Below, in pieces: positions 54,888 to 61,574 of a stretch of DNA of 64,000 nucleotides. The stretch's first letter is position 1; each line of letters begins with the position of its first letter. The stretch spans positions 1 through 64,000 of the forward strand of contig JAJZVA010000004.1 in the NCBI GenBank assembly GCA_021845905.1, in the 5' to 3' direction. The notes beneath the pieces were generated by a model. That model saw nothing but the letters and a program-made list of their open reading frames with translations. It was not told where the DNA came from and made no database searches. A program made the translations under genes and the position numbers. The stretch comes from Pseudomonadota bacterium. Its GTDB lineage: Bacteria > Pseudomonadota > Alphaproteobacteria > Micavibrionales > UBA2020.

Positions 54888-56314
54888 ATGCAGGATGATT
54901 TTTTGAAAAATTACGACACCGATTTCAACACTGTCAAACCGGTTTATAAAGGCGTTGAAGAAAAGGTTAAAAATTCTGAGACCCTTCCACATGAGGTTGA
55001 AACCGTCGTTATAGGCGGCGGGTTGCTTGGTCTTTCCACGGCGCTGGAAATTGCCGAAGCCGGACGAAAAGTCATCGTGCTGGAAAGCAATGAAAAGGCG
55101 GCGGCCCCTCGGGGCGCAGTGGCGGCCAGCTCTGGCCGGGTTATGAAGGCACGCTCGGCGAGATGCGCGAAACGTTCGGCGACAACCTTGCCATCAGCGC
55201 ATGGCACCTGACCGATGAAACCCTCAAAAAAGTTTTCAACCGCGCGGCGATGCGGCCGGACAAGTGCGATTTCAGTCCCGGCGTGCTTCTGACGGCGAAA
55301 ACCCTGCCGCAAGCGGAATGGATTGAAGAGGAAATCAAGCAGTTTGAAGAAGCGGGCTTTAAATTCGCCTCTTATATCCCGAAAGACAGAATAAAAGACT
55401 ACGTCAACACGGATCTTTATCTCAACGGCATCCTGTTCAAGGGCGACGAGGAAGGCCGTCAATACGGTCATTTGAATCCGCTTAAGTACACGCAGACCGT
55501 GGCCAAACTCGCGCATGACGTCGGCGCGGAGCTTTTCGAGCATGCGCCGGTCAAGGGCGTCGAAGCGCTTGAAGAAGGCGGCTATCTCGTCACGACCCCG
55601 GAAGGCGCCGTGAAAGCGAAAAACGTCGTGCTGGCCACCGGCGTCAATTTCATGCGTCCGAAAGGCATAGATTACGACGTGGTGCCTCGCACCAACGTGC
55701 CCGTGCAAACGGTCATTCTGGCGACCGAACCGATCCCCGGGAAACTCGCGCGCGAAATGGTGCCGGGCGACGCCTGCTTCTGCGATGCTTCCGACGCCGC
55801 GATGAACTATGGCCGCCTGATACCGGAACCCGACAAACCCGGATACTTCAGGCTGACGTTCGGCGGCGCGGATTCTCTCGCGCAAATACAAACGGCCCGC
55901 GCCGTGAAAGGCATCGAGAAGGAAATGCGCGAGATGTTCCCGCAACTCGACCGCGAAGGCATCAAGGTCGAGAAAGTCTGGGGCGGCAACTGCGACCTCA
56001 GCAAAACGGCTCTTCCCGTGCTGATCAATCCCCTGCCCGGCATCTATCACGCCAGCGGTTTTTCAGGTCAGGGCATGGTGAATACGGCGCTCTACGGCTC
56101 GGCCATCGCAGACAAGATCCTCGGCAAAGACACCGGCAAGTTCGAGACGCTCCAACAGCTGAATTCGGACTCTTATTCAGCCAACAAAATCCTGGCCTGG
56201 GTTCAGGCCGCACGGACACTGTTTCCCGTCGCCGTCGAGGCGCGCAAGGAACAAAAGGCGGAGAATGCGCGGCGCGCCGAACAAAAAAACAATTCCGCGG
56301 CAAAGCCTGTGTGA
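54888..56314 (+). pseudogene. FAD-dependent oxidoreductase, frameshifted (PuuB/OrdL-like)
   Basis: The first frame (54888 to about 55105) carries the FAD-binding start TVVIGGGLLGLSTALEIAEA and VIVLES. The second frame (about 55105-56314) continues with PSGRSGGQLWPGYEGTLGEM and the rest of a DAO-type enzyme, including VVLATG and GIYHASGFSGQGMVNTALYG. Joining the frames requires one missing base in the GGCGGCGGCCCC stretch near 55097-55108. The intact enzyme would oxidise a gamma-glutamyl-amine or amino acid. No slippery heptamer is visible, so a mutation or sequencing error is most likely. Confidence 0.8.
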
Positions 56315-56315
56315 A

Positions 56316-56439
56316 TTCCATGTGTCTTGAGCACTCTTGAGCATCTGCATAAATCCGCAGTAATCGGCGGGCAGGCGAGAGCCCTTTACGGCGAACCTGC
56401 ACATGATACTCAGCCCTTGCGTTTTTTAATGGTAGCCAC
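56316..56439 (-). pseudogene. Integrase N-terminal remnant, frameshifted
   Basis: From a GTG at 56439 the minus strand reads MATIKKRKG, then a stop. One base away in frame it continues YHVQVRRKGLSPARRL and IYADAQECSRHME. The intact integrase at 60402-61394 begins MAAIRKRKGKYEVQIRRKGF with YADAQEWARHME, so this is a relative truncated after about 42 residues. It sits in the same position relative to the tRNA-Ala repeat as the intact integrase does. Confidence 0.75.
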
Positions 56440-56494: not shown

Positions 56495-56596
56495 TGCTGG
56501 TTTGTGACCACTTCTCTAAGACATTAAATCCAAAGAGAAAAGTAATGGTGGACCCGATCGGGATCGAACCGACGACCTCCTGCATGCCATGCAGGC
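56495..56596. repeat. Left attachment repeat: 3' part of tRNA-Ala plus flank
   Basis: These 102 bp match 61448-61549 with one mismatch. 56546-56596 is the 3' half of tRNA-Ala(GGC) up to the anticodon stem. It bounds the left end of a 5-kb integrated element. Confidence 0.93.
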
Positions 56597-57261
56597 TTGT
56601 GCTCGCCTACGGCTGCGCTTCGGTCGCTGGAAGCTCCCTTTCCCAGCTGATCTTAGATTAATAAAATCAACCTGTTAGTATGTTCCATTATACATGAAAC
56701 ATGGAAATATCTCAAGACAAGACAGTGCCAGAAACTAAATCAGTGTGGGTATAGTGTGGATAGGCGCGTGTCCGGAATAGTATTTCTTTCGCTAAAATTC
56801 CTAAGCCCCTACGGGGTAGAGTGGGTAGGGAAAAATTCGGCAATGCGTCAAATTAGATACTATCACCGTCAGAAAATTTATTGTATTCGGCAAATCTCGG
56901 AACGCTAGTCTTTCACTGTCCGATACAAAAAGACTACAAAATCACTACAAAAACGATACAGCGAGAATACAACACGCTACAAAAAGACAGCATCTTCTCG
57001 GAACGTACATCTTTCTCCATCTATCCCGATCTCAAGCGCCAAGTCCTATTGTGGTCTAAAGTCCAGACTACGGGAGGCGATTGTTGTATTTTATATTTTA
57101 GATGCAAAGAAGTGACAGATGACATAGAAGCTGCCGAGATACAGAGCTGCCGATGTCGAAGCATGGCTGCAATCCCTATAGATCAACCATGAATTTTTTA
57201 ACCCCGTCATTCTCCATGCTGGAGACTGGCAATCATAAACCTATTTCTAATAGAGAACTTA
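56597..57261. other. Left non-coding region of the tRNA-Ala element
   Basis: No gene is convincing in these 665 bp. It contains the phased repeat array at 56921-56986 and lies upstream of the replication ATPase, so it may hold the element's replication origin and promoter. Confidence 0.4.
56921..56986 (+). repeat. Six TACA-based direct repeats in 11-bp phase (iteron-like)
   Basis: TACA occurs at 56923, 56934, 56945, 56956, 56967 and 56977: steps of 11, 11, 11, 11 and 10 bp. Most units are TACAAAAA plus three variable bases; first and last units are both TACAAAAAGAC. One-turn phasing puts every unit on the same face of the helix, as in iteron or multi-site protein binding arrays. Confidence 0.65.
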
Positions 57262-58800
57262 ATGAACAACAAAAACAAAAATCCTGAAACCAAACAACAC
57301 ATATCCCCCGATGATATAAAATGCGCCCTGTTCAAAACTGCCAACAATATCCCGTATGCCGTCATCAACGGACAACATAGACAAGAAGTACTCTGCATCC
57401 ATTCTCAAGCCATGCGAGACATCATCACGAAAAAACTTTACGAAAAAAACGGAAAAGCCCCCAGTAAATCGACCATTGATCAGATTCAAGACACGCTTGC
57501 GGCGAGAGCGAAGTTTGAAGGAGATACCAAGAAAGTATGGACTCGCACAGCAAAAACAGAAACCGGAATTGAAATTGACCTTAACGACGATCTTGGTTTA
57601 TGCGTCTCCATTACAAAAGAAGGTTGGGACGTAATGAGATCATCGACGGTATATTTTGAACGTCCGGCCTCTTCACGAAACATGCCTACACCTATATCAG
57701 ACGGTTCATGGGAGCTTTTTAAAAAGCATTTTAAAACAAGAAGTGAGGGAGACTTAAGGCTATTGATTGGCTTCATGTCATCGTGTTTCCGTCCAAAAGG
57801 CCCATACCCTGTATTGGTTCTTCAGGGTGAGCAAGGATCAGCGAAATCGACAACGGCAAGAATGATAAAGGCTTTAGTCGATCCGTCAGCTGGAGCCACA
57901 CGTAGCGCCCCGAAGAAAGAGCAGGACTTGTTTATTGCCGCTCAAAATAGTCATCTGCTTTCTTTCGACAACATCAGCTTAATTAAAAACGATTTCTCTG
58001 ATGCCTTGTGTAGAATTGCCACAAGCGGGACATTCGCGACAAGATCTCTCTATACGAATAATGAAGAATTTCAAATGGAGCTGTGTAAGCCCATCATCCT
58101 TAACGGCATCACCGACTTTGTAAATCGAGCCGACCTTGCCAGCCGAAGTATAATAATAGAGCTCGCACCGATACCGGAAAGCGAAAGAAAATCAGAAGAG
58201 CAGGTGATGTCAGATTTTTACGGCGATCTGCCCTTGATGCTGGGTGTTCTAATGGATAGCGTAGCTTCTGCCTTAAAATACAAAGATAGCACTAGCGTAA
58301 AATGTTTGCCGCGCATGGCTGATACTGCCATCTGGGTTACAGCAGCAGAAAAAGGGCTTGGGTGGCCTGAAAATAGCTTCTTGGAGGCATTTCAGGCAAA
58401 TCAGCTAAACGCCCTCTTAACCAATCTGTCAACAGACAGCGTTGCAATCGCTCTACGTAATTTCCTGTTCAAGCATCCCGAGAAAAAATGGTCTGGCACT
58501 GCCACGAAGCTGCTAGGGGAGTTGACGCAAGAAAAGCCCATATTCCTGAATACAAGGTCGTGGCCTGATACGCCGTCTTATCTCTCTACCTACCTCGCCC
58601 GTTTAGCCCCGAATCTAAGAAAAATAGGCATTGGATTTGATAAGGATAGGAGCAGCAGTCAACGCTTATTATCTTTTGTAAAACTGGATAATTTTGACGA
58701 TATGAACCCCAACCTGATAGATGACGGGTCATTGATACACGATCTTGATGCTCCCCATGTAGTGACGACGATGACGGCGACTTCTGTGATGAACAATTAA
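57262..58800 (+). CDS. Phage/island replication ATPase (helicase-like)
   Basis: 512 residues. A P-loop VLQGEQGSAKSTTARMIKAL sits near residues 190-210. It is followed by LLSFDNISLIKNDFSDALCR (Walker B region), ATSGTFATRSLYTNNEEFQM and PIILNGITDFVNRADLASRS (sensor/arginine region), as in the helicase half of phage and plasmid primase-helicases. The N-terminal 180 residues lack a clear primase motif. It probably loads or unwinds at the element's origin; the 11-bp repeat array lies 275 bp upstream. AT-rich and foreign to the core. Confidence 0.75.
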   Translation: MNNKNKNPETKQHISPDDIKCALFKTANNIPYAVINGQHRQEVLCIHSQAMRDIITKKLYEKNGKAPSKSTIDQIQDTLAARAKFEGDTKKVWTRTAKTETGIEIDLNDDLGLCVSITKEGWDVMRSSTVYFERPASSRNMPTPISDGSWELFKKHFKTRSEGDLRLLIGFMSSCFRPKGPYPVLVLQGEQGSAKSTTARMIKALVDPSAGATRSAPKKEQDLFIAAQNSHLLSFDNISLIKNDFSDALCRIATSGTFATRSLYTNNEEFQMELCKPIILNGITDFVNRADLASRSIIIELAPIPESERKSEEQVMSDFYGDLPLMLGVLMDSVASALKYKDSTSVKCLPRMADTAIWVTAAEKGLGWPENSFLEAFQANQLNALLTNLSTDSVAIALRNFLFKHPEKKWSGTATKLLGELTQEKPIFLNTRSWPDTPSYLSTYLARLAPNLRKIGIGFDKDRSSSQRLLSFVKLDNFDDMNPNLIDDGSLIHDLDAPHVVTTMTATSVMNN

Positions 58801-59468: not shown

Positions 59469-59662
59469 ATATTTCAGAACATGAAAAGCCGCGCATTATA
59501 GCGGTATTAAAAGCTTTAAATGACATTGAAACCGGAAGCTTGAATAACCCCGTTGTCAACGTTGCTGATCGAGAGAGATGCCAGAATTTGGGGTTGACCG
59601 ACGGCGATCGTCTAACAAAAAAAGGAGAAAATTATTTATGGGCTAATGGAGGGGCGCGATGA
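59465..59662 (+). CDS. Small hypothetical protein
   Basis: 65 residues, preceded by GAGGAG. Mostly helical then polar (EHEKPRIIAVLKALNDIETG, RLTKKGENYLW), which is like a small winged-helix protein but too short to be sure. Its stop overlaps the start of the membrane protein gene (ATGA). Confidence 0.55.
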   Translation: MNISEHEKPRIIAVLKALNDIETGSLNNPVVNVADRERCQNLGLTDGDRLTKKGENYLWANGGAR

Positions 59663-60393
59663 AAGAGAAAGAGCTATTGCTGAATCCAGTAGTTCCCGCA
59701 ATTCTCTTTTTTATCTGCCTCATCATAGAGCCGAATATACATGGAAATCAGCCCTTTTTCGCCCTGTTCTATGGTGGGGCAAAGGCTTGGTTGGTTGGCA
59801 CCATCTTGTATAAGATTTTAACATTCAAAAAAGTAACTGGCAGTAAAGAAAATGTTGAGGCAAAAAAGGAAAATGTCGGCGGTGAGAAAACTGTAGCTAA
59901 AAAAAGTACTATAGAGGGCGTATTTTCAAGCTTAATTCTTTTGGCAATGCTATTTGGTCTTGCATATTATCTTGTTACAAGCTCCGCACCGTCTATACCC
60001 TCGACATCTCCAGAATATACGCCACAACAGATTAAGGCAGAAATTGCTAAGCGAAAGGCGAAACAATGGACTCCTCCTGCTAGTGAGGTAACGAAGTTAA
60101 CGCCTCAAGAAATTGCTAAGATGTACACGCCTCAGCAATTACAAGCAATCGCGAATGAACAACCGCAACAAAAGGGTATACAAGAATTAGAGATAGAAAT
60201 GACGGCGGAAATGCGCACCTTGAAATGGTGTACCTCTGTGGTACAGAAAAACTTTTCTTCCTATGGTTGGCCAAGTGGTTTTGATGCGTACATGACTCCT
60301 GATGGCACAATTCATGACATTGGTACTGCGGCAGAGCTCTACTACTTTCAAAAATGTATGGCTGTAAATGGCTGGCCGCTCAATTACAATTAA
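59659..60393 (+). CDS. Membrane protein of the tRNA-Ala element
   Basis: 244 residues, preceded by GGAGG. It has membrane helices near residues 8-25 (NPVVPAILFFICLIIEP), 36-52 (FYGGAKAWLVGTILYKI) and 88-107 (SLILLAMLFGLAYYLV), then an external or cytoplasmic helical part with repeated PQQ/PQE words and two Cys. I do not recognise the family. It is the last gene before the convergent integrase and may act in immunity or transfer of the element; that is speculation. Confidence 0.6.
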   Translation: MKEKELLLNPVVPAILFFICLIIEPNIHGNQPFFALFYGGAKAWLVGTILYKILTFKKVTGSKENVEAKKENVGGEKTVAKKSTIEGVFSSLILLAMLFGLAYYLVTSSAPSIPSTSPEYTPQQIKAEIAKRKAKQWTPPASEVTKLTPQEIAKMYTPQQLQAIANEQPQQKGIQELEIEMTAEMRTLKWCTSVVQKNFSSYGWPSGFDAYMTPDGTIHDIGTAAELYYFQKCMAVNGWPLNYN

Positions 60394-60401
60394 ACGCAAG
60401 C

Positions 60402-61394
60402 CTAACCCAACTTCTCCGCAATATCCTCCGGCTTAAGATGTGTGTACCGGAACAGCATCCGAAAATCTCTATGTCCTGAAATTAAGGCCACCTCTGGCAC
60501 AGCTAGCCCACGCTCAAAGAACCGTGATATAGCCTCATGCCGTAGGTCGTGGAAATGCAGGTCTTTTATATCAGCACGCTTTATAAGCCTCTGCCAAGCC
60601 AACTGCACGGCATTGCAACTGGTCGGGAAAACAAGCCCTTTATTGGTATCGGCATACTTCCTCCGTCCTTCCAATATCTCGATGGCCTGACCAGAAAGCG
60701 GGATCGTCCTGCTATGCCCGTTCTTCGTGACCGGAATGTGTAGGGTCTTGGCTTTGAAATCAATGTCTGACAATTTCAGCCGTAACATTTCGCCCCGCCG
60801 CATCCCCGTTGCAATCGCAAAATCAATCAGGTCTGGTAAACACTTATTCTTGCAATCAATAGCGGCTTTTTTAATCGCCTCGTATTCCTCCGGTGCAAGT
60901 CTCCGTTTCCGCCCTGCCTGTGGTTTTATCCTTGCCAGCTTTTTCAGCGGATTTTCCCTGATCGGTATGCCCCATTCTCTCTCTGCTATATCAAAGGCAT
61001 GGCGCAAGATCGCCAAATCCCTCCGTACAGTTCCCGCCTTGACGACCTTAAGCCTCGCATCCCTGTAATCGCATATCTTTGTGGCCGTGATTTCTGCCAG
61101 TGTCTTATTCGCAAAGGACTGTTGCATTAGGTGGTCTAGGGCGTATTTCTCGCTGTAATAACTACGTTTCTTTGCGCTGACCTCATCCTTATAACGCTGG
61201 AGAATGTCTTTCACCGTGTAGCTATCGAGTTTTTTGATAGGTGATGGTAGCTCTCCCCTATCGGCCTGAACCTCCATATGTCGCGCCCACTCTTGAGCAT
61301 CTGCATAGTTGTGGAAGGTACGACTTATTGGTGAGAAGCCTTTTCTACGAATCTGGACTTCGTATTTGCCTTTTCGTTTTCTGATTGCAGCCAT
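60402..61394 (-). CDS. Tyrosine integrase of the tRNA-Ala element
   Basis: 330 residues from the ATG at 61394 (GAGG upstream). The N-terminal part MAAIRKRKGKYEVQIRRKGF is an arm-type DNA-binding domain. The catalytic set is Arg in ATGMRRGEML (about 200), Lys 224, HDLRH (282-286), His 308 in SGHRDFRM and nucleophile Tyr 317 in RYTHL. It integrates the element into tRNA-Ala(GGC), whose gene lies 105 bp to the right. All catalytic residues are present, so it should be active. Confidence 0.95.
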   Translation of the reverse strand: MAAIRKRKGKYEVQIRRKGFSPISRTFHNYADAQEWARHMEVQADRGELPSPIKKLDSYTVKDILQRYKDEVSAKKRSYYSEKYALDHLMQQSFANKTLAEITATKICDYRDARLKVVKAGTVRRDLAILRHAFDIAEREWGIPIRENPLKKLARIKPQAGRKRRLAPEEYEAIKKAAIDCKNKCLPDLIDFAIATGMRRGEMLRLKLSDIDFKAKTLHIPVTKNGHSRTIPLSGQAIEILEGRRKYADTNKGLVFPTSCNAVQLAWQRLIKRADIKDLHFHDLRHEAISRFFERGLAVPEVALISGHRDFRMLFRYTHLKPEDIAEKLG

Positions 61395-61447
61395 AGTTTC
61401 TGACCTCACTGTGGGTATAGTGTGGACAGGTCGATTTACTATGTGAC

Positions 61448-61549
61448 TGCTGGTTTGTAACCACTTCTCTAAGACATTAAATCCAAAGAGAAAAGTAATG
61501 GTGGACCCGATCGGGATCGAACCGACGACCTCCTGCATGCCATGCAGGC
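61448..61549. repeat. Right attachment repeat within tRNA-Ala
   Basis: The 102-bp partner of 56495-56596 (one mismatch). 61448-61498 is flank; the rest is the tRNA 3' half. Confidence 0.93.
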
Positions 61550-61574
61550 GCTCTCCCAGCTGAGCTACGGGCCC
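61499..61574 (-). tRNA. tRNA-Ala (GGC)
   Basis: The minus strand starts GGGCCCGTAGCTC and ends CGGGTCC-A-CCA, with a 7-bp acceptor stem containing one G-U. The anticodon stem CCTGC/GCAGG encloses ATGGCAT, giving GGC. It is 76 nt and is the target of the element to its left. Confidence 0.97.

Follow-up and report, generated by a model that had tools for sequence, protein, structure and literature searches.

A helically phased TACA array as a candidate iteron-type replication origin of a 4.95-kb integrative element

Six TACA words, spaced at one turn of the DNA helix, stand upstream of a predicted initiator helicase gene in a 4.95-kb integrative element of the window (the whole stretch of 64,000 nucleotides analysed here), and on balance, with considerable reservation, we favour the view that this array is an iteron-type binding site and the core of the element's replication origin. 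We infer that the helicase is the binder, that the array acts as an origin and that the element replicates. The element's helicase (57262-58800) would bind the six words through its C-terminal winged helix, all of them lying on the same face of a strongly bent helix; the helicase ring would assemble at the array and, after integrase-driven excision of the element, would open the DNA for host polymerases. Such an origin would probably belong to a known general type, the SaPI/SCCmec kind, except that it stands on the 5' side of the helicase gene and not on the 3' side.

The integrative element

The element is delimited by two identical 90-bp repeats, the right one of which lies inside and beside an intact tRNA-Ala(GGC) gene, and its G+C content is 45%, against 58-59% in the flanks. 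It encodes a tyrosine integrase, a 512-aa ATPase and two ORFs without family match; among its ORFs no family match to primase, packaging or interference genes was found. The view of the initial annotation that this is a mobile element is borne out by the integrase, the att repeats and the arm sites, which are listed here with the other features:

56507-56596, left 90-bp identical repeat with the 3' part of tRNA-Ala, att site (sequence comparison)
56744-56759, plus strand, left integrase arm-type pair TGTGGGTATAGTGTGG, 11-bp phase (repeat comparison)
56895-57015, plus strand, 20-bp direct repeat (TCTCGGAACG..) around the array, copies at 56895-56914 and 56996-57015 (80% alike)
56921-56988, plus strand, the six one-turn-phased TACA words, proposed as iterons of the element's origin (repeat scan, curvature)
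57134-57175, plus strand, possible relic of an HTH_17/AlpA-like gene, which in relatives stands before the ATPase (weak match, 14 residues)
57262-58800, plus strand, 512-aa AAA+ initiator helicase, predicted D5/SaPI5-Rep fold (structure model, plasmid homologues)
59465-59662, plus strand, 65-aa ORF (no family match)
59659-60393, plus strand, 244-aa ORF, N-terminal part hydrophobic by reading (no family match)
60402-61394, minus strand, tyrosine integrase, 330 aa (Pfam Phage_integrase 2.3e-30; PHROG integrase)
61410-61425, plus strand, right integrase arm-type pair, adjoining the int start codon (repeat comparison)
61460-61549, right 90-bp identical repeat, att site (sequence comparison)
61499-61574, minus strand, intact tRNA-Ala(GGC), integration target (Rfam)

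The reading frames of the ATPase and the integrase are both intact (the latter is taken as 330 aa; a longer listed frame extends into the tRNA). The HTH gene upstream of the ATPase, to judge from the weak match, appears to have been lost or degraded in this element. Just outside the left att repeat, at 56313-56426 of the window, lies an N-terminal fragment of a second integrase, 53% identical, and this remnant adjoining the left end indicates that the tRNA-Ala site has been used more than once.

Layout, statistics and predicted bending of the array

The words start at 56924, 56935, 56946, 56957, 56968 and 56978, i.e. at the steps of 11, 11, 11, 11 and 10 bp that had been annotated initially, and Tandem Repeats Finder returned a period of 11 with 6 copies (56924-56988). 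The first and last units, described as identical over 11 bp, do match over that length in the register TACAAAAAGAC (56924-56934 and 56978-56988). The spacing goes beyond chance: none of 2000 dinucleotide shuffles of the intergenic stretch 56600-57262 (663 bp) gave a chain longer than four, and with every 4-mer considered at steps of 10-12 bp, the array is the sole chain of at least five members in the 64-kb window. Across the 574 kb of genomic loci that were fetched, further chains of this length were seen only in G506 and G507, a pair of genomes fetched by the same pattern. Full conservation across the six units is confined to TACA itself, often as C/A-TACA-A, with the other unit positions variable; perfect TACA amid varying positions is unlike a young or a drifting tandem repeat.

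A dinucleotide wedge model also makes the array the curvature maximum of the window: predicted from phased A-tracts, its bend is about 133-138 degrees per 70 bp, where the mean is 28 (sd 15.5), and it exceeds that of all 2000 shuffles of the array itself. The copies of the 20-bp flanking repeat stand 101 bp apart, one on either side of it. The region is probably non-coding. A conserved protein here would, according to the initial annotation, have spoken against an origin, and the frame that overlaps the array (TTG start, 56881-57192, 103 aa) has no above-cut-off family match and no homologue in any of the fetched loci. A scan of the element, the region 3' of the helicase gene included, found no other phased chain.

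The ATPase and its homologues

Sequence searches with the ATPase gave only sub-threshold hints (VapE-like, phage primase). An AlphaFold2 model built with 13 homologues (pLDDT 81, pTM 0.79) has its best structural match in the SaPI5 primase-helicase (Z 19.9, 375 residues aligned), followed by vaccinia D5/MPXV E5, ASFV PrimPol, PriRep1-dsDNA and SCCmec Cch, and its Foldseek matches also include NrS-1 and SaPIbov1 Rep. Residues from about 393 to 475 are predicted to form a C-terminal winged helix (helix-strand-helix-helix-strand-strand). The model thus predicts an initiator helicase of the D5/SaPI5-Rep type, which, together with homologues in plasmid replication modules, upholds the earlier call of a replication ATPase downstream of the array.

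No close relatives of the ATPase were found in viral contigs. The nearest relative, 64% identical, is that of palsa_926 (locus L003, PLXM01000085.1), where it occupies the same tRNA-Ala gene in an element with a different, unrelated integrase and an HTH_17-like gene just 5' of the ATPase. A related ATPase joined to an unrelated integrase at the same tRNA-Ala site amounts to module exchange. The palsa_926 contig ends 455 bp upstream from the ATPase frame, and that stretch contains no phased array; most other ATPase homologues likewise have no clear array, and the upstream regions share no DNA similarity within the family beyond short words. The initial annotation would have given up the origin if phasing were not conserved in homologous elements, and palsa_926 partly bears this objection out, although iteron words change quickly between replicons; phasing does recur in the independent pair G506/G507.

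In Streptomyces plasmids, homologues of the ATPase stand beside primase/polymerase genes. The Methanothrix plasmid pH6Ac has, some 600-670 bp upstream of its ATPase homologue, 6.5 perfect copies of an 11-bp repeat, and the Streptomyces plasmid pFP11 has three 11-bp repeats behind its own. Both resemble the element in having a homologous ATPase with 11-bp repeats nearby; they differ in being plasmids, in their repeat words (GTGCGTCCCTG, GTTCGAGCAAA) and, in the case of pFP11, in a separate primase/polymerase gene. The pFP11 RepA, which may or may not be the ATPase homologue, is reported to bind iterons (PMC3583192). Repeats of 9 bp near the 3' end of some ATPase homologues were set aside, as they lie inside the coding frame.

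Phased arrays in other genomes and in phages

When 142 genomes of the order were searched for the pattern, it turned up outside the window in a single pair of sister species, G506 and G507, each of which has six CTACA words spaced at 12, 11, 11, 11 and 10. Differences between the two amount to 1/30 in the words and 9/36 in the spacers (Fisher p 0.017). Their homology starts exactly at the first word and extends as far as the 3' end of a gene for a 480-aa protein (phrog_4756, a family of unknown function), and it is this gene, not the ATPase, that the array accompanies; in G507 the array stands between the ends of two convergent genes. More distant homologues of the 480-aa gene had no arrays, and no relatives of its product were found in viral contigs. 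Four TACA words at 11 bp occur near chance in the 142 genomes, the reversed control also giving 2 matches.

Five phased words were found in at least 120 viral contigs each for TACA at 11 bp, TCAA at 11 bp and TACA at 10 bp, and in 112 for CATA at 11 bp, spacer divergence being similar across the words scanned. Since every word tried gave at least 112 viral contigs, arrays at one-turn spacing are common; the idea that TACA is a special word was rejected, other words and steps being common too, and the general feature is the phasing.

We surveyed the genes within 800 bp of 69 distinct phage arrays with divergent spacers among the matches listed. Primosomal and replication-initiation proteins are the commonest near these arrays, among the matches listed: phrog_9327 accounts for 9 of the 97 genes, other families of primosomal, initiation and helicase-loader proteins are present, and the Pfam families include DUF1376 (4), Phg_2220_C (3) and Lin1244_N (3). 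Among the same matches, integrases lie near three arrays, and one array adjoins a transcription-regulator gene. None of these families ranks among the 25 most frequent in a control set of 101 genes from the same contigs, each 2.5 kb or more away. The survey describes an association, not a rate, and the families overlap. This clustering with replication-initiation genes speaks for the earlier claim that phased arrays are a hallmark of iteron origins. One-turn arrays of short words beside phage replication-initiation genes offer a simple sequence signature for unknown origins. More speculatively, a 4-5-bp word per helical turn, with free spacers and private to its element, might mark a widespread class of initiator landing sites in phages and small integrative elements, in which pitch rather than sequence would be conserved and the initiator (here the D5-type helicase, via its winged helix) would build a filament that is bent and one-sided.

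The words CGATACA and GAATACA of the window are also found in two phage arrays (L156:14303-14350 and L169:256-303); these fall within a DUF1376-like gene that precedes a DnaC-like gene, and have a similar reading (YK..T.TIQ.EY).

Comparison with known origins

SaPI Rep recognises iterons through the C-terminal domain, and it is again this domain by which SCCmec Cch2 binds the 5-nt iteron AAGTG, a word that it requires (PMC7581432); origins of the SaPI type are situated 3' of the helicase gene and often comprise two iteron sets (PMC7581432, PMC6092414). The element resembles these systems in its predicted D5/SaPI5-fold helicase, its short tandem words, its being mobile and integrated, and a C-terminal dsDNA-binding domain (here a predicted winged helix). 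Their iterons, in contrast, lie directly 3' of the helicase gene, whereas the element has a single array on the 5' side and lacks a primase, and its helicase, when structurally aligned with SaPI5 Rep, is about 10% identical in sequence. With Gram-negative PICIs (PMC6092414) the element shares an integrase, a predicted initiator and putative iterons, and an AlpA-like gene occurs in its relatives, but it measures only 4.95 kb, has no recognised packaging or interference genes, and has one phased array where PICIs have two iteron sets around an AT-rich melting region. Phage origins inside replisome-organiser genes (lambda O, DUF1376 types) likewise have short words phased at one turn, but those lie within the initiator gene, and no such gene is present here.

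Because the array is 5' of the gene, the repeat set is single and there is no primase, we do not file the element as a PICI, and because a primase is lacking and the HTH gene looks degraded, the autonomous replication suggested by the initial annotation cannot be claimed. If the proposed origin is real, one helicase and a 68-bp array would make a very small replicon within a 4.95-kb element, and a convenient subject for learning how D5/SaPI5-type helicases find and open origins.

The integrase sites

A TGTGG pair is present at both ends of the element, and these pairs are candidate integrase sites. All 13 homologous integrase loci inspected have an identical or near-identical word pair, in 11-12-bp phase, just 5' of the int start codon, with a word private to each locus; in six of them the same pair occurs again 5.6-8.6 kb away, and the window's pair likewise occurs twice, at 56744 and 61410. 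None of the 12 other homologous-integrase loci scanned had a phased chain of four or more, so that the TACA array does not go with this integrase, and elements with the same integrase that lack the ATPase have no array. If an arm site is recognised by the same word on both arms, the TGTGG pair qualifies and the TACA array, present on one side only, does not.

Alternative explanations

In favour of an origin we count an array beyond chance, the helicase fold, the plasmid homologues, G506/G507, the phage association and the array-less integrase relatives; against it count palsa_926, with no phased array in its 455 bp, and most other homologues, with no clear one, the single array on the 5' side, the lack of a primase, the possible HTH loss, and an array in G506/G507 that goes with a different gene (phrog_4756). 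One may also consider an operator, at which a protein of the host or the lost HTH_17/AlpA-like protein would act as cooperative regulator, binding the words and controlling the promoter of the ATPase operon. The array does lie about 275 bp 5' of the ATPase ATG, relatives carry an HTH_17-like gene just 5' of the ATPase, and one of the phage arrays adjoins a transcription-regulator gene. However, the G507 array is in a convergent region behind two gene ends and not at a promoter, and promoter-like matches in the element do not exceed chance, with none on the plus strand between the array and the ATG; we consider such a role unlikely but not negligible.

That the words might serve recombination, as extra integrase or excisionase sites or as a bend for the excision complex, seems improbable to us: arm sites of this integrase family are indeed 11-bp-phased pairs too, and three genes near phage arrays are integrases among the matches listed, but the integrase already has its TGTGG pairs on both arms, the array is one-sided, about 325 bp from the att repeat, and the 12 other integrase loci show no chain of four or more. 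A comparably low probability attaches to a non-functional relic, either a tandem repeat or the defunct origin of an element in decay. The possible decay of the HTH gene (a weak match), the second-integrase remnant beside the element and the divergence of units 4 and 5 outside TACA would agree with it, whereas the intact ATPase and integrase frames and a TACA that is perfect in six units while other positions vary would not. Finally, parC-type centromeres consist of roughly 11-bp phased repeats bound by ribbon-helix-helix proteins, a phasing that the array shares, but no ParM/ParR/ParA-like gene was recognised in the element, and a partition or other filament-forming site (ParR/parC-like), separate from replication, is very improbable indeed.

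Other observations

The segment 59240-59465 (plus strand) is non-coding and strongly structured (RNA folding z -6.3, with 0 of 200 shuffles as strong); it has a sub-threshold match to sRNA-Xcc1 (39.8 bits against a cut-off of 53) and an 88% copy elsewhere in the same genome (G000:C5:20731-20967). Six of the integrase loci (L111, L113, L116, L117, L120 and L121) represent a family of 5.6-8.6-kb integrative elements in various tRNA genes; both ends of each carry paired integrase sites in 11-bp phase, and every integrase has a word of its own. By reading, the cargo of such same-integrase elements resembles restriction/modification genes (L111:1293-2953, L113:9804-12055), namely a cytosine methyltransferase with a Vsr-like gene and an adenine-methyltransferase-like gene, and L111, L113 and L116 have in common a related gene of about 213-245 aa.
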